NCBI RefSeq assembly: GCF_900105185.1
Contig: NZ_FNTJ01000002.1
Coordinates: 248,001-312,000 of the forward strand
DNA: 64,000 nucleotides
Source: Pseudomonas saponiphila
Lineage (GTDB): Bacteria > Pseudomonadota > Gammaproteobacteria > Pseudomonadales > Pseudomonadaceae
Reading direction: 5' to 3'
The position numbers and the translations under genes were made by a program. This document shows positions 2,532 through 19,197 of this stretch, piece by piece (the first letter of the stretch is position 1; the number at the start of each line of letters is the position of its first letter). Below the pieces are notes generated by a model that was not told where the DNA came from, searched no databases, and saw only the letters and a list, made by a program, of their open reading frames with translations.

Positions 2532-4217
2532 ATGGCGGCGCCGCGAGTAGCCATGCGAAACATCAAAGAATGTCTGCGCCTCAAGTTTGAGGCCGGCTTG
2601 TCCCACGAGAAGATTGCCCGTGCCTTGCAGCTGTCCAAGGGCGTGGTTAGCAAGTACATCGCGGCGGCGCGGGTGGCCGGGCTGGACTGGCCGGCGCTGG
2701 TGGCCATGGACGAGGCCGCGCTGGCGGCCGCCTTGTTTGCACCGACGTCGACGAACAAGCCGCGCGGTGAGCGAGTGCTGCCCGATGTGCTGAGCATCCA
2801 CCGCGAGTTGCGACGCAAGGGCGTGACCTTGCAGCTGCTGTGGGAGGAATATCTCGCCGCGCATGCGGGCCAGCCGACCTACCGCTACACCCAGTTCGTC
2901 GAGCACTACCGGCGCTACGCCCAGACGCTCAAACGTTCGATGCGTCAGCTGCACCGTGCGGGCGAGAAGCTATTCATCGACTATGCCGGGCCGACGCTGC
3001 CGGTGGTCGACCCGGCCACCGGCGAAGTGCGCCGGGCGCACATCTTCGTCGCCGCCCTGGGCGCCTCGAATTACACCTATGCCTGCGCGACGCCAGGCGA
3101 AACCCAGGTGGACTGGCTGACCTCGCTGGGCCAGGCTCTGACCTACTTTGGCGGCGTGCCGGAAATGGTTGTGCCGGACAATCCGCGCGCCCTGGTCGCC
3201 CAGCCGGATCGCTACGAGCCGGGCCTGAACCGGGCCACGCTGGAGTGCGCGCGTCATTACCAGACGGTGATCCTGCCGGCACGGCCACGCAAGCCTCAGG
3301 ACAAGGCCAAGGCCGAGGTGGCGGTGCAGGTGGTCGAGCGCTGGATCATGGCGCGGCTGCGCCATCGGCAGTTCTTCAGCCTGCATGCGCTTAACCAGGC
3401 CATCGCCGAGCTGCTGGAGGATCTGAATCGGCGCCCGTTCAAGCGGCTCGATGGCTGCCGGCGCGACTGGTTCGAGCGCCTGGATCGCCCGGCCTTGCGA
3501 GCGCTGCCGGTGCATCCCTACGAGGTCGCCACCTTCAAGCGCTGCAAGGTCAGCATCGACTACCACATCGAGGTCAATGGCAGCTTCTACAGCGTGCCCT
3601 CCGCCCTGGCCCGGCAGAACGTGGACGTGCGACTGACGGCACACACCCTGGAAGTGCTGCATGGCAACCGGCGGGTGGCCAGCCACCTGCTGCTGGGGCG
3701 ACGCGGCGCTTACAGTACCCAGCGCGAGCACATGCCCGCGGCGCACCAGGCGCATCGCGAATGGACGCCACAACGCCTGCTCGACTGGGGCGCGCGGATC
3801 GGCCCCTACACGCGCCAACTGATCGATCACCAACTGACCCACAAGCCGCACCCGGAGATGGGCTACCGCGCCTGCCTCGGCCTGCTCTCGCTGGCCCGGC
3901 GCTATGGCAATGCACGCCTGGAAGCCGCTGCCGAACGTGCCGTACACCTGCGCGCCTTCACCGGGCGCAGCGTGCGCAACCTGCTCCAGCAAGGCCTGGA
4001 TCAACAGCCGCTGCCCCAGCGTGCCGCCGAAACGACCTTACCCGGCGACCACGAGAACGTCCGTGGCGCCGACTACTACCAACCCCCGCAACAGGAGCTG
4101 TTCGATGATGCCGCAACACACCCTGAATCAACTGCACCAGCTACGCCTGGACGGCATGGCCCGCGCCCTGGAAGAGCAATGGACGCTGCCGGCCAGCCAC
4201 AGCCTGAGCTTCGATGA
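2532..4217 (+). CDS. istA: IS21 transposase IstA
   Basis: This is the 561-residue DDE transposase of the IS21 element, which cuts and joins the element ends. An N-terminal helix-turn-helix region (about residues 10-45) would bind the terminal repeats. The integrase core follows, with the likely catalytic triad D150 (in FIDYAG), D216 (in VPDNPRA) and E262 (in KAKAEVAV). The ATG is preceded by a GAGAGGAAG stretch. The reading frame overlaps the start of istB by 113 bp, so the two are probably translationally coupled. A copy with the same protein sequence is at 53416-55101. Confidence 0.95.
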
Positions 4218-4854
4218 ACGCCTCGGCCTACTGCTCGACCGCGAACTGGCCTGGCGTGACAACCAGCGCCTGGTACGGCTGCGCAAGAAGGCCAAGCTCA
4301 AGTACGCCAACGCCTGCCTGGAAGATCTCGACCGCCGCACCGGACGCGCCCTGGACGAGCGTCTGATCGCCACCCTGGCCAGTGGCGACTGGATCCGCCA
4401 GCAGCACAACCTGCTGCTGACCGGCCCGACCGGTGCCGGCAAAACCTGGCTGGCCTGCGCCCTGGGCAACCAGGCCTGCCGCCAGGGCTATAGCACCCTG
4501 TACCTGCGCACCCCGCGCCTGCTGGAACAACTGCGCATCGCTCATGGCGACGGCAGCTTCGGCCGTACCCTGCAACAGCTGGCAAAGGTCGACGTCCTGG
4601 TGCTGGACGACTGGGCGCTAGCCCCGCTGGAGGAAGGAGCCCGGCATGACCTGCTGGAGGTGATCGACGACCGCGCTGGCAGCCGCTCCACCATCCTGAC
4701 GAGCCAACTGCCCATCGAGCACTGGCACGGCTGGATCAACGACCCGACCCTGGCCGATGCCATCCTCGACCGCCTGGTGCACAACGCCTACCGACTGACG
4801 ATGAAAGGCGAGTCGCTGCGCCGAAAAAAAGCCGAGGAACAAGCCGCATCGTGA
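4105..4854 (+). CDS. istB: IS21 helper ATPase IstB
   Basis: IstB is a DnaC-like AAA+ ATPase that assists IstA in target selection and strand transfer. The protein has 249 residues from the ATG at 4105, which has an AGGAG 8 bases upstream; a longer open frame upstream is only read-through inside istA. Walker A is at residues 107-114 (GPTGAGKT) and the Walker B aspartates are near 168-169. The stop codon overlaps a GTG (GTGA at 4851) that opens a further 45-codon frame running across the right end of the element and over the thrS start codon. The second copy is at 52779-53528. Confidence 0.95.
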
Positions 4855-4965: not shown

Positions 4966-6855
4966 ATGATCCGCATCACCCTGCCTGATGGCGCGTGCCG
5001 TGAGTACGACCAGCCGTTGTCCGTGTTCGAGGTGGCCGCCAGCATTGGCAGCGGCCTGGCCAAAGCCGCCGTGGCCGGACGGGTCGACGGCCGGCTGGTG
5101 GACTGTGACTACCTGTTGCACAGCGACACCCACCTGAGCATCGTCACCGCCAGCGATGCCGATGGCCTGCAAATCCTGCGTCACTCCTGCGCCCACCTGC
5201 TGGCCATGGCGGTGAAGCAGTTGTACCCCTCGGCTCAGGTCACCATCGGCCCGGTCATCGAGGACGGTTTCTTCTACGACTTCGCCTACGAGCGCCCTTT
5301 CACTCCCGAGGATCTGGACCTGATCGAGGCGCGCATGCACAGCCTGGCCGCCACCAACCACCGCCTGCACCGCCGCGAGCTGTCCCGGGAGCAGGCGCTG
5401 CAACACTTCGCCGCGCAGGGCGAGCACTACAAGGTCGAACTGATCCGCGATCTGCCTCAGGAGGCCGTGCTGTCGCTGTACCGTCAGGGCGATTTCGAAG
5501 ACCTGTGCCGCGGCCCCCACGTGCGCAGCACCGGTCAGTTACGGGCGTTCAAGCTGACCAAGGTGGCCGGGGCCTATTGGCGCGGCGACGCCAACAACGC
5601 GCCGTTGCAACGGATCTACGGCACCTGCTGGGCCACTCGCCAGGATCTGGACGCCTATCTGGTTCGCCAGGAACAGGCCGCCAAGCGCGACCACCGCAAG
5701 CTGGGCCAGCAACTGGACCTGTTCCACTTCGACGACTGCGCGCCAGGTTCAGTGTTCTGGCACGCCAAGGGCTGGACCCTGTTCCAGCAGTTGATCGGCT
5801 ACATGCGCCAGCGCCAGGAACAGGCCGGCTACCAGGAAGTGAACACCCCGGACGTGATGGACCGCAGCCTCTGGGAAACCTCCGGGCACTGGCAGAACTA
5901 CCGCGACCACATGTTCACCACCAGCACCGAGGACCAGCGCACCTTCGCCCTCAAGCCGATGAACTGCCCCGGCGCGGTGGCCATCTTCGGCCAGGGTTTG
6001 AAGAGCTACCGCGACCTGCCCCTGCGCATCGCCGAGTTCGGCAAGGTCCATCGCTACGAACCTTCGGGGGCACTGCACGGCTTGCTGCGGGTGCGCCACT
6101 TCACCCAGGACGACGCCCACATCTTCTGCACCGCGCAACAGATGCAGGACGAATGCGCCCGCACCATCGCCCTGGTGTTCGACATCTACAAGGAGTTCGG
6201 TTTCGACGAAGTGGCGGTGAAGCTGTCCACCCGCCCGGCCAATCGCATCGGCAGCGACGAGGTCTGGGATCAGCTGGAAAGCGCCCTGGTCGGCGCCCTG
6301 CAAAGCATGCGGATCGACTATCGGCTCAACCCGGGGGAAGGCGCCTTCTACGGCCCGAAACTGGAGTTCGTGCTGCGCGACGCCATCGGCCGCGACTGGC
6401 AGTGCGGCACCCTGCAAGTGGACCTCAACCTGCCCGAGCGCTTTGCCATCAGCTACGTCGACGACCACGGCGAACGCCGGCAACCGGTGATGCTGCACCG
6501 CGCGCTGTTCGGTTCCCTGGAACGCTTTATCGGCATTCTCCTTGAGCACCATGGCGGCGCCCTGCCCCTGTGGCTGGCACCGCAGCAGGTGGCGGTGCTG
6601 AACATCAGCGCGGCCCAGGCGAACCATGCCCAGGCCATCGCCGAGCGCCTGCGCCGGCATGGGCTGCGGGCCAGTGCCGACCTGCGCAACGAAAAGATCG
6701 GCTACAAGATCCGCGAGCACAGCCTGCAGAAAGTGCCTTATCTGCTGGTGATAGGGGACAAGGAGCAAGCCGGAGGCTACGTCAGCCTGCGCAGCCGCAA
6801 GGGCGAAGACCTGGGGCAGCTGACCCTGGAGCAGGCGCTGCAGCGCATGGTCTAG
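4966..6855 (+). CDS. thrS: Threonyl-tRNA synthetase, second copy
   Basis: This cytoplasmic enzyme charges tRNA-Thr. It is 629 residues, slightly shorter than the usual 640. It contains an N-terminal TGS domain (1-60), the editing domain with H73, H77, C181 and H185, the class II catalytic core and a C-terminal anticodon-binding domain. The catalytic zinc ligands C334, H385 and H511 are all present, so it is not an obviously zinc-free form. The context with hisI, the carbonic anhydrase gene and pyrQ identifies it as the zinc-limitation paralog rather than the housekeeping thrS, which in pseudomonads lies next to infC. The AAGGA ribosome site at 4952-4956 survives, although an IS21 element now ends at 4947 and separates the gene from the operon promoter. 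Confidence 0.92.
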
Positions 6856-6930: not shown

Positions 6931-7455
6931 TCAGGAAGCCCGGGGCTTGACCGTGCCGCAGTCCTGGCCGAGCCACACGGCGCGGGTGTCCATGCTGCCC
7001 TTCTGCTGCAGGCCGGTGGCATTGAAAGTGCCGATCACATTGGTGGTGAACTCGCGATCACTGATGAACCTGGCTACCCCACTGCCCTGGGCCTTGGGAC
7101 AACTGAAACGAAACTTCCACTGGTTGCCGTTGCGCTCGGTGACCTGCTGCCGGCAGCCCGACTGCGGGTCCTGCAGCGGGATGGTATCGGACTTGACCTG
7201 ATCCGGCGTCAGGCACACGCGAATGCCCTTGCCGCCCATGGTCACGCCCTGTTTCTCCAGCATGGCCCGTTGCTGCGGGGTCATCTGCTGCTGCAACTGG
7301 CCGAGGATCAGCGACAGATCCGGCAGGTTCTGGTCATCGACCTTCATGTTGCTGCTGGTCAGTTCCCACAAGCCCGGTTGCAGCATCTGCGCCTGCGCCG
7401 CCAGTGGCAGCGCCATTCCCGCCGCCAACGCCCAACCCAGTAAACGAAGTTTCAT
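6931..7455 (-). CDS. Exported DUF3617 family protein
   Basis: This is a protein of 174 residues with a clear signal peptide of about 22 residues ending AAQA, so it should be periplasmic. The mature part starts with a PGLWE motif and holds paired cysteines, both typical of DUF3617 proteins, whose function is not established. It is encoded convergently to thrS, with 75 bp between the stops, and is divergent from the cardiolipin synthase gene, 132 bp away. Nothing in the sequence points to a substrate or partner. Confidence 0.75.
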   Translation of the reverse strand: MKLRLLGWALAAGMALPLAAQAQMLQPGLWELTSSNMKVDDQNLPDLSLILGQLQQQMTPQQRAMLEKQGVTMGGKGIRVCLTPDQVKSDTIPLQDPQSGCRQQVTERNGNQWKFRFSCPKAQGSGVARFISDREFTTNVIGTFNATGLQQKGSMDTRAVWLGQDCGTVKPRAS

Positions 7456-7587
7456 CGAATGACTCCTAGACAGTAGTGGCCGTTAGACTTCAAGCAAGGC
7501 ACGGCGTTGCATGCAGAATAAAATAGCGACATTCGCTGTGGAACATGGTCTGTTAGGCATTGAATTCTTCAGGAGCAAGGCTGCCCC

Positions 7588-9027
7588 ATGGATTATTTTG
7601 GCCCGCACATCTTTGGCTATCTCATCGCGCTGCTGCATTTTCTCGGGCTGATCGCCGCGATCCACGCGGTGTTCACCGTCAGGACCGCCCAAGGCGCCAT
7701 TGCCTGGGCCCTGTCACTGATGTTCATGCCCTACCTGACCCTCATCCCCTACCTGGTGTTCGGCCGCAGCACCTTCGACGCCTACATCAAGGCCCGGCGC
7801 CAGGCCAACGTGGAAATGCACAAGGCCATCAATGAGCTGAACTGGCGCCCCTGGGTCGAAGAAGCCCTGACCGCCCGGGCCTCCCAGGCCTATGCCTCGT
7901 TGCGCGCCATGCCCAAGCTCGGTCGCATGCCGTGCCTGGCCAACAATCAGCTGCGCCTGCTGGTCAATGGCGATGCCACTTTCGAAGCGATCTTCAATGC
8001 CATCCGCCGTTCCCATACGGCAGTGCTGATCCAGTTCTTCATCATTCACGACGACCAGTTGGGCCGGCGCCTGCAACGCCTGCTACTGGAAAAGGCCGCC
8101 GAAGGGGTGTCGATCCACCTGCTCTACGACGGCATCGGCAGCCATTCCCTGCCCGCCAGCTACGTGCAGACCCTGCGCGAAGCCGGGGTTCAGGTACACG
8201 CCTTCGCCACCCGCAGCGGCTGGCTCAATCGCTTTCAGGTGAACTTTCGCAACCACCGCAAGATCGTGGTGGTGGACGGCATGCTGGGGTTTGTCGGCGG
8301 ACACAACGTCGGTGACGAATACCTGGGCGAGAAACCGCCCCTGGCCCCCTGGCGCGATACCCACGTGCAGGTCAGCGGCCCGGTGGTGGCCTGCCTGCAG
8401 GAGTCCTTCGCCGAAGACTGGTTCTGGGCCGCGCGGCAGCTGCCACCGCTGATCCTGCCGGACGCCTACCCCGACGGCGGCGTGCTCTGCCAATTGCTGG
8501 CCAGCGGTCCGGCGGATGCCTACGAAACCTGCTCGCTGTTCTTCGTCGAGGCGATCCACGCCGCCAGCGAACGGGTGTGGATCACCAGCCCGTACTTCAT
8601 TCCCGACGAGGCGGTGTTCGCCGCCCTGCGCCTGGCGGTGCTGCGTGGTGTGGACGTGCGCATCCTGCTGCCGGCGCGCCCGGACCATCGCATCGTCTAC
8701 GCCGCCTCCAGTCTCTATGCCTTCGAGGCAGTGCGCGCCGGGGTCCGGGTCTTCCGTTATCAGCCGGGGTTCCTGCATCAGAAAGTGGTGTTGATCGACA
8801 ACGAGATCAGCGCCATTGGCAGCGCCAACCTGGACAACCGCTCCTTCCGCCTGAATTTCGAAGTGATGTTGCTGACCGTGGATGACGATTTCGCCACCGA
8901 GGTCGAGGACATGCTCAAGGCCGACTTCGCCAAGGCCCGGGAAATCGCCAAGGAAGAAAGCCGCCAGACCCACCGCCTGCAACAACTGGGCATGCGGGTC
9001 GCGCGGCTGATTTCACCGATTCTGTAA
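7588..9027 (+). CDS. cls: Cardiolipin synthase (ClsA type)
   Basis: This enzyme condenses two phosphatidylglycerols into cardiolipin in the inner membrane. It is 479 residues, the normal ClsA length. Two N-terminal membrane helices lie at about 5-28 and 36-58. Two phospholipase D HKD motifs follow: H223/K225/D230 and H397/K399/D404. The ATG has an AGGAGC stretch about 14 bases upstream. It stands alone on the plus strand and ends 19 bp from the convergent cyclopropane synthase gene, another membrane-lipid gene. Confidence 0.93.
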
Positions 9028-12009: not shown

Positions 12010-12261
12010 TTACTCGCCGACTTTGCCGCCGGCTTTTTCGCAGGCCGACTGGGTCATGGCCTTGAAGCCCTGGCCTTTGCAGGCGCCCATGCCTTTGCAG
12101 GCGTGGTCCTTGGTCTTGCAGTCGTTCTGGCCTTTGCAGGCGTTGACGCCGTAGCAATGCACCTGGGCATCGGCAGCAGACGCTTGAGTCACGACACCGG
12201 CAAACATAGTGGCGGCGGCGAAGGCCAGGGCAGCACCGGCAGCGGTTTTCTTCATGTTCAT
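12010..12261 (-). CDS. bufA: Cys-rich exported precursor peptide, BufA1-like (DUF2282)
   Basis: This small precursor has 83 residues, with a signal peptide (about 1-29, ending QASA) and a mature part with six cysteines at 36, 42, 48, 55, 61 and 74. Four of them occur in a repeated C-K-(G/T) pattern at near-regular spacing. This matches the DUF2282 or bufferin 1 class, whose cysteines are modified by a DUF692 enzyme and which bind copper. The ATG is preceded by GAGGA. The gene lies directly upstream of the MNIO gene on the same strand. The modified product, metal and physiological role in this organism are inferred from family knowledge. Confidence 0.85.
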   Translation of the reverse strand: MNMKKTAAGAALAFAAATMFAGVVTQASAADAQVHCYGVNACKGQNDCKTKDHACKGMGACKGQGFKAMTQSACEKAGGKVGE

Positions 12262-12335
12262 TTTTTATTCCTCAATAGTCGCAAGGGGTCGACGGGCAGC
12301 TTGTGCAATCCCGTCATAGCACTAGAGAGAGGAGG

Positions 12336-12359
12336 CATCCCGGCGTTACAGCCGGGATG
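12336..12359. repeat. Inverted repeat upstream of bufA
   Basis: A 9-bp perfect stem (CATCCCGGC/GCCGGGATG) with a 6-base loop lies between bufA and the ATPase gene. A run of A/T is on the wrong side for an intrinsic terminator of the leftward transcripts, so its role is open; a protein-binding or RNA-stability element is possible. Confidence 0.45.
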
Positions 12360-12380
12360 AAAAAAATCCGCTCAGTCGCA

Positions 12381-12405
12381 TTTCGCCGGCAAGCCGGCTC
12401 CTACA
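12381..12405. repeat. Pseudomonas REP element overlapping the ATPase stop codon
   Basis: The core GCCGGCAAGCCGGCTCCTAC is the typical REP sequence of the P. fluorescens and P. putida groups. Here its CTCCTAC tail supplies the TAG stop codon of the P-type ATPase gene. Inverted REP copies occur at 37998-38051. Confidence 0.85.
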
Positions 12406-14302
12406 GCTTGAGCAGCGGTTCCTGGAACCGCAGCAAGCGACCGGCATTGCCCAATACCAGCAAGGTGCTGAGGTTGTGCAACAGCGCGGCGATCATGGCC
12501 CCCGCCGCCCCCAGCCAGCCAAAGGCAGCAAAGGCGACGATGGCCAGGGTCCAGCCCAGGCCGATGATCACATTGACCTGCAGGGTGCGGCGGCATTCTC
12601 GACTCAGGCGCACGCAGGTGCCCAGGCGCCGCAGGTCGCTGCCGATCAGCACCACGTCCGCCGAGGCCAGGGCGATGTCCGCGCCACCGGCGCCCATGGC
12701 CACGCCCACCACCCCGGCTTTCAGCGCCAGGGAATCGTTGATGCCGTCCCCCACCACCATCGGCCGGAAGCCCGTGTCGATCTCCCCCAGCACGCGCTTG
12801 AGTTTGTCTTCTGGCAGGGCCTGGGCCTGCACATCGCTGATGCCCACCTCCAGGGCCAGGCTGTCCGCCACGCTCTGCCGGTCGCCGGTGAGCAACAACT
12901 GCCGCCCCAGCCCCAGCTCGCGCAACTCCTCCAGCGCGTGCCGAGCCTCGGGCTTGACGCTGTCGGCCAGGAGCAGCCAGCCGAGGAACTCGCCATTGAG
13001 CGCGAGCCCGGCAATCGGTCCGTCATGCTTCGGCACCGGGCTGGTAGTGATGCCCAACTGGCTGAACAGTTCCGGGCGGCCAAGGGCCGCTTCGCCCTCC
13101 CCGGTACGGGCCACCACGCCCAGGCCCTGGCGCTCATGGATGTCGCTCAGCAGCCATTGTTGTTCCTGGGGCACCAACCCGGCCAGGGCCCGGCTGACCG
13201 GGTGGCTGCTGGCCGAGCCGAGGCTGGCGGCCAGATTGAGCATGCCCTGCTGGTCTTCCCGGGGGCTGTCGATGGCCTGCAGGCGCAAGGTGCCGAAAGT
13301 CAGGGTGCCGGTCTTGTCCACCACCAGGGAAGTCAGGTCCGCCAGCTCTTCAAGAAAGGCCGAGCTGCGGATCAGGATGCCGTGGCGCGCGGCCACGGCG
13401 ATCCCGGCAATCGCCGTGGCCGGGGCCGACAGCACCAGGGCGCAAGGACAAGCCGCCACCAGCACCGCGAGCATGGCCTGGGCATCGCGGGTGATGAACC
13501 AGGTCACCGCCGCCAACAGCAGCACCAACACCAGATAACTGCCGGCATAGCGTTCCAGCAAACGGGTGATCGGCGGCTTGGCCCGTTCAGCGCTCTGCAT
13601 CAGGCCGATGACCTTGCCCAGGGTCGACTCTTCACCCGTGCGGGTCACTTGCAGACGCAACAAGCCATCCAGGTTGATCGCCCCGCCATATACCTGCATG
13701 CCCACCGTGGCCTCCAGGGGCACCGACTCGCCGGTGATCGGCGCGGTGTCCAGGCTGGCCTGACCGGACAGTACCAGGCCGTCGGCGGGCACGCGGTCGC
13801 CGGCGCGCACTTCCACCCGATCACCGGCCTTGAGGCTGGCGTTATCCACTTCCAGCACACTGCCGTCGGCCTGAACCTTGCGCGCCAGACTGCGGGTCAG
13901 GCGGCCCAGGGCATCGATGGCTTCCTGGGAGCCGATCACGCTGCGCTCCTCCAACACGTGGCCGAAGATCATGATGATCGGCAGCAAGGCGGCGGTCAGC
14001 AGATCGCCGGTGGCCCAGGCGCCGAGCATGGCCAGGGCGATCAGTTGATCGGTAATGCCGTGCAGGCTGGGATAACGCAGGCTGAACCAGGCCGAGCGCA
14101 TCACCGGCACCGCCACCAGCAAGGACGCCACACCCAGCAGCAACTGGCTCACGCCCTCCTGCTCCGGGGCCTGCCAGCGCCACAGCAGGCCCAGCCCCAA
14201 CAGCCCCAGGGCCAGCATGGCCAGGGTCAGTTGGCGCGCGGCGCTGCGTTGCTCGGCGCTGGTCAGCATGCTGGCGGGGGCCGCCTGGGTTGAAGCTGTC
14301 AT
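12401..14302 (-). CDS. P1B-type heavy-metal-transporting ATPase, no N-terminal metal-binding domain
   Basis: This 633-residue pump would move a metal cation across the inner membrane using ATP. Visible motifs are TGES (190-193), the transport-site CPC in TM6 (285-287), the phosphorylated DKTGT (329-333), the HP locus (367-368) and GDGIND (518-523). It lacks the N-terminal CxxC heavy-metal domains common in CopA and ZntA. The last membrane segment reads HNLST, where ZntA-like zinc pumps have an acidic residue and CopA-like pumps have Met/Ser, so the ion cannot be assigned. It is the last gene of a four-gene operon with three SPFH proteins, each overlapping the next by 4 bp. The stop codon lies in a REP element. 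Confidence 0.9.
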   Translation of the reverse strand: MTASTQAAPASMLTSAEQRSAARQLTLAMLALGLLGLGLLWRWQAPEQEGVSQLLLGVASLLVAVPVMRSAWFSLRYPSLHGITDQLIALAMLGAWATGDLLTAALLPIIMIFGHVLEERSVIGSQEAIDALGRLTRSLARKVQADGSVLEVDNASLKAGDRVEVRAGDRVPADGLVLSGQASLDTAPITGESVPLEATVGMQVYGGAINLDGLLRLQVTRTGEESTLGKVIGLMQSAERAKPPITRLLERYAGSYLVLVLLLAAVTWFITRDAQAMLAVLVAACPCALVLSAPATAIAGIAVAARHGILIRSSAFLEELADLTSLVVDKTGTLTFGTLRLQAIDSPREDQQGMLNLAASLGSASSHPVSRALAGLVPQEQQWLLSDIHERQGLGVVARTGEGEAALGRPELFSQLGITTSPVPKHDGPIAGLALNGEFLGWLLLADSVKPEARHALEELRELGLGRQLLLTGDRQSVADSLALEVGISDVQAQALPEDKLKRVLGEIDTGFRPMVVGDGINDSLALKAGVVGVAMGAGGADIALASADVVLIGSDLRRLGTCVRLSRECRRTLQVNVIIGLGWTLAIVAFAAFGWLGAAGAMIAALLHNLSTLLVLGNAGRLLRFQEPLLKL

Positions 14303-15357
14303 TGTTCGGCTCCCTGAATGATCAGGCGGGAATCGTCTTTGGGGTTGACCGTGGTCAGCGAGCCGGCCTGCCCAAGAATCTTCGGCAGGCGCTCGCGGTA
14401 GATGCGCAGGAGCATTTGCGGATCGGTGCCATCGCGTTGTGCCTGGGCCAGGCTCTGCACCGTGGCGGTCTGGGCCCGGGCCAGGGCCAGGCGTTCGCTG
14501 GCCTGGGCATGGGCCACCTGCAGGCTGTGATCGGCTTGCTGGTTGGCGTTCTGGGTTAGCTTCTCGGCCTCGGTGCGGGCATTGGCCACCGCCTTGTCGG
14601 CCTGCTGGCTGGCGGTCAGCACCGCGTTGAAAGCACTTACCGCCGGTTGCGGCAGGCTCGACTGCACGTCCACTCGCGTCACCTCCAGGCCAATGCCCTG
14701 GCCGCTGGCGCTCAGTTGCGCCAGCCGCTGGTTGATGCTTTGCAACAGATCGCCCCGTAGCCGTTCGCGGCGTTCGGCGGCCTGATTGTCAGGGCCCATC
14801 AACTCCGGACGCGCCACCAGGATGGTGTCCAGATCACGGGCGGCGGTCAGGGCCAAGGCGCTGCGGGTCACCAGGCGATCCAGGGCCGGCAGCACATGTT
14901 CGCCCTGCAGCACGTAGGCAAAAGGGTCACTGACCTTGTAGAAGACCCGCACATCCAGTTGCACCACCCCGGCATCGCCGGTGAGTAGATACCCCGAACC
15001 GGCCAGGGCGTCGTTCAAGGGCGTGGCCAGACTCGCCACCCGGTCCCCTTCCAGCGCAGCCTCGGAACGCAGCAAGCCTTCGACCCGCCGCTCCAGCACC
15101 CGGTCGGCGGCGGGCAACAACACCACCTGCTCGAAGGGCTGCGGCCAGGCCAGGAGCAAACCGGCGTTCTGCACCCGCTGCAGCGCGCCAAAGTGCATCA
15201 CCAGGGCCCGGTCCTGCGGGTCGATCTGCCGCACATTGGAGATCGCCCAGGCCACCGCCGCCAGCACCGTGACCACGTACAGCGCGATAAACGCCAGACG
15301 ACCGGCCTGAATCCACGGGCTGCTCAGTTCATTTGTTCCACGTGGAACCTTGCTCAT
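14299..15357 (-). CDS. SPFH-domain protein, HflC-like
   Basis: This 352-residue protein has one N-terminal membrane helix (about 18-38), an SPFH/band-7 domain (about 45-230), and an Ala/Gln/Glu-rich coiled-coil tail. It resembles HflC, the stomatin-like modulator of FtsH, but is not the canonical hflC, which belongs to the hfq-hflX-hflKC locus. It overlaps the ATPase gene and the upstream SPFH gene by 4 bp each. Codons 4-9 contain a perfect parS sequence. SPFH proteins form ring-like membrane assemblies; a scaffold around the ATPase is a plausible but untested role. Confidence 0.82.
   Translation of the reverse strand: MSKVPRGTNELSSPWIQAGRLAFIALYVVTVLAAVAWAISNVRQIDPQDRALVMHFGALQRVQNAGLLLAWPQPFEQVVLLPAADRVLERRVEGLLRSEAALEGDRVASLATPLNDALAGSGYLLTGDAGVVQLDVRVFYKVSDPFAYVLQGEHVLPALDRLVTRSALALTAARDLDTILVARPELMGPDNQAAERRERLRGDLLQSINQRLAQLSASGQGIGLEVTRVDVQSSLPQPAVSAFNAVLTASQQADKAVANARTEAEKLTQNANQQADHSLQVAHAQASERLALARAQTATVQSLAQAQRDGTDPQMLLRIYRERLPKILGQAGSLTTVNPKDDSRLIIQGAEQ
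15334..15349. promoter_or_regulatory. parS: parS centromere site bound by ParB
   Basis: TGTTCCACGTGGAACC matches the Pseudomonas parS consensus in full and includes the 14-bp perfect palindrome GTTCCACGTGGAAC. It lies inside codons 4-9 of the HflC-like gene, about 47 kb from dnaA, in the region where origin-proximal parS sites are expected. parA and parB are in the same window. I saw no second full match here. Confidence 0.9.
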
Positions 15358-16394
15358 GGCTGCGATCCGGAGGCTTTGTTCGGCAGGCTCGGCGGACCGT
15401 CCACCAGCACCCGGAACGGTGCGGCATCGGTACGCAGAATCAGCTTGGTGCCCGGTGTCACCACGGTGCCCAGGGTGTCCAGGGAGCGCAGCAGGTTGTA
15501 CAGCTGTGGCGAACTGGCGTAGGCGCGACCATAAATCTGCGCCGCTTCCACCCGCGACTGGGCTTCGATATTCGCCGCTTGCACCGTGGCATCGGCCTGG
15601 ACAATCCGCGCATCGCGCTCGGCGGCAGAGCGGATCTGCGCCGCCTCGCGCTTGCCGATGGCGGTGCGCTCGGTGGCGATGGTTTCCCGCTCGGCGCGCA
15701 TGCGATCCACGGTGGCGGTGAGGGTCACCGACGGCAGGGTCAGGCGCTCGATGCCCACCTGCACCACCTGCACACCATATGTAGCCAGCAGTTGCTGATC
15801 GATCTGCTTGCGTAATTGCGCTTCAAAGTCAGCGATCCGCACCTGGCCGGCATCGGTGTTCACCAGATTGGCCAGATCGAAACTGCTGGCGGTGGTTTCC
15901 AATGCGGAGCCGACGAAGGTGCGGATCTGCCGCGCCGCTTCATCGGGCTGGTTCTGCACGGCACGCATGAAGCGCTGCACGTTGTCCGGGTCGCCCTGCA
16001 CTCGCCACGCTACATAGGCCTGGACGATGATGCGCAAACCGTCGCGGGTGCCCACATCCTGCATACCGCTGGAGGTGGTGCGCAGACGCAGATCCACCGG
16101 GATCGCCGCTTCGAAGGGTGCCGGCCAGCGCCAGCTCAGGCCCGGATCCAGCAGCACCCGCGCCGGGTTGCCGAAACGGGTGATCACCGTGGCCTCGCCG
16201 GAGCGCACCTGCACCAGGCTCGCGGCGGCGACGGCGAACAGCACCAGCAGCAGCGCCCAGCTCATGCGCCGCCAGGGGAAGGGCCCGGCCTCGGCTGGCG
16301 CGCCGTGATGATGGTGGTGATGACCGTGATGGTGATGATGGCCGTGCCCATGGTCATGAGCGGCGTGATCGTGAGAGTGGGCAGACTGGCTCAA
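15354..16394 (-). CDS. SPFH-domain protein with histidine-rich N terminus, HflK-like
   Basis: This is a 346-residue SPFH protein with a striking N-terminal tail: 17 of residues 6-30 are histidine, mixed with Asp and Gly. A single membrane helix (about 45-65) and the SPFH domain follow, then a coiled-coil region near 215-280. The His tail should face the cytoplasm if the topology is that of a simple N-in protein, where it could bind or buffer Ni, Zn, Cu or Co; this is inference. The operon partner is a P1B ATPase without its own metal-binding domain, so the tail could feed metal to the pump. It overlaps both neighbours by 4 bp. Confidence 0.82.
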   Translation of the reverse strand: MSQSAHSHDHAAHDHGHGHHHHHGHHHHHHGAPAEAGPFPWRRMSWALLLVLFAVAAASLVQVRSGEATVITRFGNPARVLLDPGLSWRWPAPFEAAIPVDLRLRTTSSGMQDVGTRDGLRIIVQAYVAWRVQGDPDNVQRFMRAVQNQPDEAARQIRTFVGSALETTASSFDLANLVNTDAGQVRIADFEAQLRKQIDQQLLATYGVQVVQVGIERLTLPSVTLTATVDRMRAERETIATERTAIGKREAAQIRSAAERDARIVQADATVQAANIEAQSRVEAAQIYGRAYASSPQLYNLLRSLDTLGTVVTPGTKLILRTDAAPFRVLVDGPPSLPNKASGSQP

Positions 16395-18328
16395 TGGACG
16401 GCTCCTGGCTGAGCGGCTTTGCCCCGCGCCACAGGGTCGGCGGGCGGGGTGAATGTACGCAGATCGAGGGTCGGCGCGCTGTCGCCCCCCAGACGATGAT
16501 CGAGAATCAGCAGCCGGGCCTGGCTCAGCCCCCGGCTCAGTTGGCTCAGGTACTGCTCAAGAACAAAGGCCTGCCCGGCGCTGGCATAGGCTTGTCGATC
16601 GGCGCCAAAGCGCAGGTCGGCGGCCTGGGCCGTGGCCTGGACCTCGCGAGCATCGGCCCGGGCCTGGTCATTCGCCATACTGGCCTGCAATTGCGCCTGA
16701 TTGGTCTGCTCGGCGGCGGCGCCGCGCTCCCGGGAGATCAGCGCCTGGGCCGCAATCTGCGCCGCTTGCACGCCGTGATAGGCATTGGCGGCACCGGCCG
16801 GTGGATGGATGGCCTCGACCACGGTGGCGAGGATCTCCACGCCGCTGTCCAGCTTGTTCAGATCGGCCTGCACCGCCTTGCCGATGTCGTCCGCCAGCCC
16901 GGTACGGTCTTCGCCCAGCAGGCCGTCGAGGGTACGCGACGCGAAGTCGTGCACCAGCACCCGGCTGGCGGTGCTGCGGATCAAGGTCGGCACATCGCTG
17001 CTGTTATAGGTCGCGGCCAGCGCCGCCCTGTCGTCCAGGCCGATGCGGTAGACGAAGCGCACGTCCATGTTGACGATCTGAAAGCTCTGTTGCTGGCCGC
17101 TGCCACTGGCGATGACCTGGGATTTGTCATTCACATGGCTGGCGTCCCACAGGCGGTTGGCAATCGCCGGTGCCGGGCCTTCGGCCGGGGCCAGCTGGAC
17201 TGGCTGCGGGCTGTCGCCAACGCTGGTGGCCAGCTCGTGGACCACGCCGTTTTCCACCCTGATGACCCGGCCCAGCGGCCAGGGCAGGCCCACATGCAGG
17301 CCTGGGCCGAAGACTTGTAGCGGCTTGCCAAAACGCTCATAAATGCCGCGATTCTGCAGCGAAAGCTCATGAACGCCGGTCAACAGCCAAGCAATCGCCA
17401 GCACCACCGCCAGCACCGGCAACAACGCCCGGCGCATGTAGGTAAACGCCCAGATCTGCCGCAGATCGATGCCGAACCTGTTGTGCAACTCGTGCTGCAG
17501 GCTGAGCAGCGGTTGCGGCGGCCAGCGCAGCATGTCGGCGATCACGCTGTGGGCCAGCAAGCGCGGTTCAAGCTGTTCACGCTGCGGACTGAACAGCGAC
17601 AACAGCGCCCGCAGCAGCAACTCCCCGGCCACCAGAGCCGGCAGCAGCCCGATCAGCACCGCCAGGCGCACCGGCCACAGCGCCGCGTCGCTGCTGAACA
17701 GCAGGCACAGGGCACTGACCAGCAGACACAGGATCGACACCCGCAACAGTTGCGCCAGGGCGCCGGCCTCCGGCCATTCCAGGACCGGCTCCTGGGCCAG
17801 TTGGCGCTCCAGCACCAGCAGGGCGAAGGCCAGCAGCAACGCCAGCACCGCGGCGACACTGGCACTCAGGCCCAGGGCCGTGGCGGGCAAACTCAGGTTG
17901 AACACCCGCGACAGGCTATACAGGATCAGCAGCGACCAGCCGGCGAGCCACAAGGTCGGGGCGCCGATCTGCCGCAACAGCCGTCGCCAGCGCAGCGCCA
18001 GGGTCGCCGAGAGGCCGGTGCGCAGCGGCTCCTCGGGCAGCGCCAGCGGCGCAGGGTTGATCGCCTCTTCCCGCCAGCGACTGAGCCAACAGGCCGACTG
18101 CAAACCCGCCACCGCCACCAGCAAGGCGCAGGACAAGTTGACCAGCAGCGCCGGCCAGATCGTCTGCGCGGCGAACAGGTCGACAAACACCGCCGACACC
18201 AAACCCAGCACCGCCAGCCCGAGCAGGACCGCGCCCCAACGCTGCAAACGCGCGGCATGAACCGCCGCCCGCTGAAACCGTGGCAAGGCGGCCACTTCGG
18301 CGCCCTGTGTCTGAAGATCGACTTGCAT
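16391..18328 (-). CDS. Large SPFH protein with multi-pass N-terminal membrane domain, HflK-like
   Basis: This is the first gene of the SPFH/ATPase operon, 645 residues. Unlike ordinary HflK, it has about six hydrophobic segments in the first 265 residues, then a further helix at about 295-315, followed by the SPFH domain (about 325-520) and an Ala/Gln-rich coiled coil. This is roughly twice the length of stomatin-like proteins. The start at 18328 is preceded by a G-rich stretch. A 245-bp gap separates it from the divergent phospholipid cluster and should hold both promoters. The function is not known; with the two smaller SPFH proteins it may build a hetero-oligomeric ring. Confidence 0.8.
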   Translation of the reverse strand: MQVDLQTQGAEVAALPRFQRAAVHAARLQRWGAVLLGLAVLGLVSAVFVDLFAAQTIWPALLVNLSCALLVAVAGLQSACWLSRWREEAINPAPLALPEEPLRTGLSATLALRWRRLLRQIGAPTLWLAGWSLLILYSLSRVFNLSLPATALGLSASVAAVLALLLAFALLVLERQLAQEPVLEWPEAGALAQLLRVSILCLLVSALCLLFSSDAALWPVRLAVLIGLLPALVAGELLLRALLSLFSPQREQLEPRLLAHSVIADMLRWPPQPLLSLQHELHNRFGIDLRQIWAFTYMRRALLPVLAVVLAIAWLLTGVHELSLQNRGIYERFGKPLQVFGPGLHVGLPWPLGRVIRVENGVVHELATSVGDSPQPVQLAPAEGPAPAIANRLWDASHVNDKSQVIASGSGQQQSFQIVNMDVRFVYRIGLDDRAALAATYNSSDVPTLIRSTASRVLVHDFASRTLDGLLGEDRTGLADDIGKAVQADLNKLDSGVEILATVVEAIHPPAGAANAYHGVQAAQIAAQALISRERGAAAEQTNQAQLQASMANDQARADAREVQATAQAADLRFGADRQAYASAGQAFVLEQYLSQLSRGLSQARLLILDHRLGGDSAPTLDLRTFTPPADPVARGKAAQPGAVH

Positions 18329-18573
18329 ACCACCCCGCCGCTCTGGCCCGGCCCTGTGGATAAATCCCGAGCCGAATAAAGTTGAAACAATTCGTTACTG
18401 TATAACCCATCGAGTGAAATTTTTGTCGCACGTCATGTCTTTTCATCCATGGCGTGCGTCGAAGACACAACTGGCAGCCATTTGCTCGTGCAGAAACTTC
18501 TGATGTCAGCCCCCTGGCATTTGTGGCAATAATCCAGCCCTGCTCACCGCGTGCGACAAGGAACCGTCCCATC

Positions 18574-19197
18574 ATGCTCTCGATTTACCAGCTCAAACCG
18601 CGCTTTCAGAACCTGCTGCGGCCGTTGGTGCAGCGCTTGTACGACAACGGCACCACCGCCAACCAGATCACCGTCCTGGCCGCCGTCATCTCACTCCTGG
18701 TCGGCACCGTCATTGCCCTGTTCGCCAGCCACGCCTGGCTGTTCGCCCTGATTCCGTTGTGGATGATCCTGCGCATGGCGCTCAATGCCATCGACGGCAT
18801 GCTGGCTCGGGAGTTCGGCCAGCAGTCGCGCCTGGGCGCCTACCTCAACGAACTGTGCGACGTGGTCGCCGACAGCGCGCTGATCCTGCCCTTCGCCCTG
18901 CTCCCGGGGGTCAGCCTGCTGCTGGTGCTGGCCGTGACCCTGCTGGCACTGTTCAGCGAATACGCCGGGGTGCTCGGGCCGATGGTCGGCGCCTCACGCC
19001 GCTACGACGGCCCCATGGGCAAGAGCGACCGGGCCTTCATCCTCGGCGTGCTGGCCACCGGCATCGCCCTGGGCTGGCTCGGCGCCCTGTGGATCAACGG
19101 CGTGCTGGCACTGGTTGCCGCTTTGCTGGTCTACACCCTGATCAACCGGGTCCGCCAGGGCCTCAAAGAAGTTCAGCACAACGCTCCCTCTGCATAA
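18574..19197 (+). CDS. ynbA: CDP-alcohol phosphatidyltransferase family protein, YnbA-like
   Basis: This integral membrane enzyme of 207 residues belongs to the family that swaps CMP of CDP-diacylglycerol for an alcohol. The signature is recognisable (DG-x2-AR at 74-79, G88, D96), but two of the four metal-binding aspartates are asparagines (N71 and N92). As I recall, E. coli YnbA has the same changes. The ATG at 18574 has AAGGAA about 10 bases upstream; the open frame further upstream is not supported. It is the first gene of a six-gene plus-strand cluster with YnbC-, YnbD- and YnbB-like proteins. The alcohol substrate is unknown. Confidence 0.85.
   Translation: MLSIYQLKPRFQNLLRPLVQRLYDNGTTANQITVLAAVISLLVGTVIALFASHAWLFALIPLWMILRMALNAIDGMLAREFGQQSRLGAYLNELCDVVADSALILPFALLPGVSLLLVLAVTLLALFSEYAGVLGPMVGASRRYDGPMGKSDRAFILGVLATGIALGWLGALWINGVLALVAALLVYTLINRVRQGLKEVQHNAPSA

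Follow-up and report, generated by a model that had tools for sequence, protein, structure and literature searches.

Why would three membrane proteins of the SPFH family be encoded together with a metal pump? The question is raised by a four-gene operon in Pseudomonas saponiphila, located in a window of 64,000 nucleotides (contig NZ_FNTJ01000002.1 of assembly GCF_900105185.1, positions 248,001 to 312,000). A sequence-only reading of this DNA had suggested that the SPFH proteins, SPFH1 to SPFH3, organise the P1B-type ATPase in the membrane and deliver metal to it; it was unaware that both the operon and the pump, HmtA, are already known. We propose that the HmtA-type pump and three HflK/C-type SPFH proteins form one complex under zinc starvation, and put the probability of this at roughly 0.55. 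The evidence bears on regulation and gene linkage; the remaining steps of the mechanism we infer.

Organization and conservation of the operon

The four genes lie on the minus strand where the sequence-only reading had placed them, and both the open reading frames (ORFs) and the junction letters agree with its 4-bp overlaps (Table 1). Pfam searches bear out Band_7 (SPFH) domains in three of the proteins and a P-type ATPase in the fourth. More than chance is involved, as all three overlaps are retained in 72 of 80 close rows (79 fetched Pseudomonas loci and the window); the first junction is a 12-bp gap in seven rows, and the SPFH3 frame is interrupted in one (L017; L, G and f numbers are our handles for loci, genomes and families). 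The SPFH2 start was chosen as the candidate nearest a 4-bp overlap; it is TTG in 80/80 close rows and overlaps the SPFH1 stop codon in 73. The interrupted frames of SPFH3 in L017 and of SPFH2 in G1158 (L224), like the early stop of the pump frame in L074, may reflect sequencing error or decay. No promoter or terminator was detected on scanning 18200-18700 and 12150-12550.

A survey of gene order supports the view that the four genes behave as one unit. SPFH1 is present in 151 of 249 Pseudomonas genomes and the HmtA-type pump in the same 151, neither being found in the other 98. Presence was scored at E below 1e-150 for SPFH1 and below 1e-240 for the pump; ten weak matches to SPFH1 (E 2e-9 to 8e-4) were scored as negative, and for 68 genomes without SPFH1 the absence follows by exclusion from the matches listed. 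The genes are contiguous in 80/80 close rows, two of which are cut within the pump by the contig end (L012, where the contig ends after SPFH1, was left out of the four-gene counts), and in 18/18 further Pseudomonas loci. Of 390 genomes surveyed from the order, 10 harbor an HmtA-type pump, each with SPFH3 just upstream; those outside Pseudomonas (G705, G733 and, from family f207, G859 and G879) keep the order of the four genes, and G733 has one additional ORF ahead of the pump. The phylum survey found the pump in 11/364 genomes. Three of these had not appeared before, one from another class (G1078) and two from family f227, which we read as enterobacterial from the neighbouring genes; all three contain the four genes. 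Every one of the seven loci outside the genus carries the unit, with the SPFH2 frame interrupted in G1158. The class survey gave the pump in 1/369 genomes, and a single-sequence search with the SPFH1 N-domain matched one class genome of 369, the one studied here; the class, order and phylum samples share genomes. The HmtA-type pump was never found without such an SPFH gene in the genomes surveyed. Other P1B pumps showed no SPFH match within ca. 1.5 kb on either side in 48/48 loci, the flank being shorter in L136 and L197.

Predicted regulation by zinc

The metal role that the sequence-only reading expected can be given more exactly as one in zinc starvation, as indicated by a Zur-type site upstream of the operon and by published data on its P. 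aeruginosa counterpart. The palindrome before SPFH1 (Table 1) resembles GTTATANNATAAC, which we take to be the Zur-box consensus. A 13-mer that matches in 10 or 11 of 11 positions starts 39-88 bp upstream in 80 of 81 rows (the window and 80 fetched loci, 79 of which are positive); L059 is the sole row without one. Among further Pseudomonas loci 16/18 match at least 9/11 Zur-box positions, and the two f227 genomes have sites with 11/11 and 10/11 matches, 61 bp upstream. The two f207 copies and the copy from another class show no convincing Zur box. Five of the six sites in the genome that have loci adjoin dksA2, folE2, a PA4063-like gene, rpmE2 and this operon (names from ORF reading); the sixth (L092) has no gene name, and three further genome-wide sites have no locus. 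We therefore predict Zur-type control of the operon, Zur binding being published for the P. aeruginosa operon only.

In that organism purified Zur shifts the PA2439 promoter in an electrophoretic mobility shift assay (EMSA; PMC8531726; papers are cited from passages, by PubMed Central number). In a znuA mutant PA2437, PA2438 and PA2439 were upregulated 14.4, 10.6 and 9.0 times and hmtA 5.6 times (PMC4542158). The operon proteins were also higher under zinc depletion, with p <0.05 for PA2438 alone of the four (data-dependent acquisition; PMC11761036). The SPFH genes have been named paFlo5-7 and are regarded as an operon, for which complete horizontal transfer was suggested; it was found in only 2/10 other Pseudomonas species, and a conserved operon organisation is said to be absent (PMC13086221). 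The main text of that paper contains neither 'hmtA' nor 'P-type'. Within the titles, abstract starts and passages covered, which mostly exclude subscription papers, no publication connects these SPFH proteins with what the pump does, places HmtA among P1B6-like pumps or describes an SPFH protein with a CDF-like domain.

The pump and the His-rich tails

The pump was correctly read as lacking a metal-binding domain of its own, since Pfam shows no N-terminal HMA-type domain. It is 81% identical over 619 amino acids to protein P0215 of the P. aeruginosa group, which we infer from the operon layout to be PA2435 (HmtA). In 95 of 99 HmtA-type pumps helix 4 contains CPC and the last helix HN(L/F/M)ST, the other four pumps being unreadable; HN occurs in 0/37 readable other P1B loci, 11 more being unreadable by the pattern used. 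In an alignment with ZntA, the K and D that have a functional role in that protein are replaced by W and H. By its CPC and HN motifs the pump can be classed as P1B6-like. This term has been used for CtpC, a zinc exporter with CPC and HN that depends on PacL1, a scaffold in the membrane whose tail binds zinc; genes for P1B6 pumps typically lie with those for DUF6110 proteins (PMC9374683). PacL-CtpC-type assemblies have been named effluxosomes (PMC13043812). A Pfam scan of the four operon proteins and five neighbours found no DUF1490.

The His-rich tail noted in the sequence-only reading is present on SPFH2; as to its location, it is N-terminal, and predictions place it in the cytosol and make it disordered. 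Each copy that was read is rich in His here, with 8-18 His in the 98 Pseudomonas rows, 9-18 in four more copies and 8-10 in the last three. The pump has a His tail of its own (4-13 His) in 15/17 Pseudomonas loci outside the close set, the remaining two having two His (L168) and none (L169). In the close set this tail is missing in 71/80 pumps, including that of the window, and present in nine; the f227 pumps have one and two His in theirs.

Which way the metal moves is the point on which the strongest rival to our proposal turns. Import is somewhat the more probable direction, because the operon is co-regulated with uptake genes and because of the published HmtA data. HmtA is said in reviews to be a Zn/Cu importer (Lewinson 2009). 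Alternatively the assembly may export, removing, like CtpC-PacL1, copper, cobalt or cadmium that leaks through co-induced zinc importers, with the His tails feeding the pump. Export is favoured because the pump shares the CPC and HN signature with the zinc exporter CtpC and because the tails lie on the predicted cytosolic side, where metal would enter an exporter; it is disfavoured by Zur regulation together with uptake genes. The HmtA data bear on both directions: overexpression is reported to increase cell metal, and it is on overexpression that the claim of import rests, an unusual direction for which a review asks confirmation (PMC10393844). We regard export as a serious possibility, if the less probable one.

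The SPFH proteins

In a maximum-likelihood tree of 30 Band_7 proteins SPFH1, SPFH2 and SPFH3 each form one clade. SPFH2 groups with HflC (support 92/86) and SPFH1 and SPFH3 group with HflK (97/92), their exact placing being unsure given long branches to the housekeeping HflK/HflC proteins. As in HflK and HflC, the SPFH/Band_7 domain follows a membrane anchor. By this grouping the operon encodes one HflC-type and two HflK-type subunits, a composition which suggests that SPFH2 might alternate with SPFH1 or SPFH3 in a ring, like HflC with HflK. Since the proteins are HflK/C-type, such rings would lie in the periplasm.

The same homology gives rise to the main rival explanation for the SPFH part, in which the three proteins are zinc-starvation versions of HflK and HflC that adjust FtsH, and the pump is merely an operon neighbour. 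FtsH is a zinc protease, and two papers, one of them PMC11761036, tie these proteins to it. However, SPFH1 and SPFH3 score 57.2 and 82.4 bits on the NCBIfam hflK model (equivalog cut-off 159.4) and SPFH2 100.7 bits on the hflC model (134.4), all below the cut-off. The seven Band_7 matches of the genome comprise the three of the operon, two more and a separate pair read as hflK-hflC, whose frames show neither a His tail nor an extra membrane domain. Moreover, SPFH1 co-varies with HmtA across the 249 genomes, and we consider modulation of FtsH an unlikely explanation.

A multi-pass membrane domain in SPFH1, the largest of the three, had been read correctly: the hydropathy plot has six segments, and the AlphaFold2 (AF2) model seven membrane-length helices, one of them broken. 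The modelled architecture is a six-helix N-terminal membrane domain, one further helix and then the SPFH domain. The N-terminal domain (Table 1) is modelled as CDF/SLC30-like by fold only. A claim of CDF homology by sequence was dropped and restricted to the fold, as no profile match was obtained: PF01545 did not match any of three SPFH1 N-domains at E up to 10, and HHalign gave a probability of 0.3% for the N-domain against a thin profile of the four CDFs of this genome. Metal ligands (D/H) of CDF proteins lie in helices 2 and 5. Within residues 58-90 and 185-212 of SPFH1, a single position, E187 where helix 5 begins, is D, E or H in at least 10 of 21 rows, and helix 2 has no conserved D, E or H in these rows.

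Proposed assembly

In the assembly that we propose, Zur would release the operon when zinc is scarce, and the 4-bp overlaps would couple synthesis of the four proteins. The SPFH proteins would ring the pump on its periplasmic side, as HflK/C do around FtsH, with the CDF-like domain of SPFH1 embedded in the membrane for docking or stabilisation. At the cytoplasmic face of the pump, zinc would be held by the His-rich N-tail of SPFH2, and the disordered His tails, in many species including a second one on the pump, may buffer zinc that leaves or enters it.

Several points weigh against this assembly. Physical association of the four proteins and metal delivery by the tail are both postulated here, and the SPFH halves of both predicted models are low in confidence. 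The co-occurrence counts are inflated by co-inheritance of the operon. The 13-mer with one mismatch gives 12 strand hits genome-wide against 14 for a reversed control; because the pattern is not enriched, support for the Zur site rests on its position and conservation. In P. aeruginosa hmtA mRNA is not lowered by zinc addition (PMC8531726), a review exempts hmtA from Zur binding (PMC10393844), and deletion of the three SPFH genes leaves growth in rich medium normal (PMC13086221). The His counts of the pump and SPFH2 tails are inversely related in the raw data (Spearman -0.61, 98 rows); on contrasts the trade-off is weak (r -0.22, p 0.03; rank p 0.075; L065, L079 and L162, where the contig end cuts the pump, left out) and amounts to one state change on the tree, and as a sign of interaction it was dropped after this correction for relatedness. 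As a separate observation, the exemption in PMC10393844 stands against the EMSA of PMC8531726, done on the promoter of PA2439, the first gene of the hmtA locus.

A further alternative is that the gene products share only their regulation and form no complex, each acting on its own. While no interaction data were found and the effects of SPFH deletion are mild under the conditions of PMC13086221, the retention of the overlaps, the intact unit in other families and another class, and the finding of neither pump without SPFH1 nor the reverse in 249 genomes make separate action improbable.

Should HmtA function within an SPFH assembly, experiments on the isolated pump would have to be repeated, and its direction would become testable with the four genes together. 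Such an assembly would also mean that the SPFH proteins which Pseudomonas makes in zinc starvation do something other than control FtsH, and zinc limitation would be the test condition absent from the 2026 deletion study, as far as passages of PMC13086221 go. An HN-type pump with a second scaffold, unrelated to the first, would point to a general scaffold requirement in this pump class. More tentatively, and with doubt prevailing, the operon may encode a new membrane metal machine: an HflC/HflK-type cage, with a degenerate CDF domain fused to one subunit, that surrounds a P1B6-like pump, keeps it stable and hands zinc on along arrays of His tails. An origin independent of PacL would then make scaffold-dependence general for HN-type pumps, and the 'import' by HmtA might be that of a pump overproduced without its cage.

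Neighbouring genes

Downstream of the pump, directly and on the same strand, lie bufA2-bufB-bufC, genes for a bufferin (copper-chelating peptide); that the operon goes with them and handles copper is very improbable and was rejected as the main context, since, among the 77 loci long enough to tell, bufB occurs in 29 and cfaB in all. Only bufC fragments are found between the pump and cfaB in L011, L018 and L020, suggesting loss.

A zinc-starvation island, its gene names from ORF reading, extends over L094 (G000:C2:236000-252000) and positions 1-2289 of the window, its near end ca. 10 kb from the pump gene. It comprises two COG0523-like GTPases, dksA2, amiA, folE2, znuCBA, a hisI-like gene, a gamma-carbonic anhydrase and a pyrC-like gene, and has two perfect Zur-box palindromes. 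The island is separated by an IS21-like IstA/IstB pair from a threonyl-tRNA synthetase paralog (window 2532-4854, 4966-6855; names likewise from ORF reading), which may belong to the island.

Table 1. Features of the operon and its surroundings, in window coordinates
Feature	Position	Strand	Basis or remark
SPFH1	18328-16391	minus	645 aa; ORF call; Band_7 at aa 325-537 (Pfam)
SPFH2	16394-15354	minus	346 aa, TTG start; ORF call; Band_7 (Pfam)
SPFH3	15357-14299	minus	352 aa; ORF call; Band_7 (Pfam)
P1B-type ATPase, HmtA-type	14302-12401	minus	633 aa; E1-E2_ATPase and hydrolase (Pfam)
Overlap SPFH1/SPFH2, 4 bp (TTGA)	16391..16394	minus	junction sequence
Overlap SPFH2/SPFH3, 4 bp (ATGA)	15354..15357	minus	junction sequence
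Overlap SPFH3/P1B, 4 bp (ATGA)	14299..14302	minus	junction sequence
Zur-box-like palindrome GTTATACAGTAAC	18394..18406	minus	1 mismatch to GTTATANNATAAC; far end 78 bp before SPFH1 start
SPFH1 aa 18-250, CDF/SLC30-like membrane domain	17579..18277	minus	fold of model only
SPFH1 SPFH/Band_7 domain	16718..17356	minus	Pfam
SPFH2 His-rich N-terminal tail	16287..16394	minus	17 His in 41 residues; pLDDT 35-44
CPC metal motif of pump, aa 285-287	13442..13450	minus	motif reading and alignment
HNLST motif, last membrane helix of pump, aa 609-613	12464..12478	minus	P1B6-like signature
Bufferin operon bufA2-bufB-bufC (MNIO RiPP)	12261-10319	minus	directly downstream of pump

Comparison with known systems

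The closest known system is the PA2439-PA2435 (hmtA) operon of P. aeruginosa, which has the same order of three HflK/C-family genes followed by a P1B-ATPase gene, with the highly similar pump described above, and whose promoter is bound by Zur. It differs in that PA2436, an extra locus number, falls between the genes for SPFH3 and the pump (PMC11761036), and the pumps of the P. aeruginosa group carry their own His-rich tail, unlike that of the window. In L206 SPFH3 and the pump are likewise separated by a small additional ORF (7142-7594), signal-like at its N-terminus and possibly like PA2436.

The PacL1-CtpC platform of Mycobacterium tuberculosis likewise combines a CPC and HN P1B pump with a membrane scaffold that has a zinc-binding tail and is encoded with it. 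Its scaffold is a DUF1490 protein rather than an SPFH protein, and its role is in zinc resistance, not zinc starvation; the likeness is functional at most, and the parallel with an SPFH scaffold is our own. CDF/SLC30 transporters such as YiiP and ZnT resemble SPFH1 in the modelled fold of its N-terminal domain, whereas SPFH1 shows no conserved D, E or H in helix 2 and no sequence match, and has a fused SPFH domain. The HflK-HflC cage around FtsH is also built from K- and C-types of HflK/C-type SPFH proteins together; compared with it, the operon has three subunits instead of two, an extra membrane domain, a His tail, an adjoining P1B pump gene and predicted Zur-type control.

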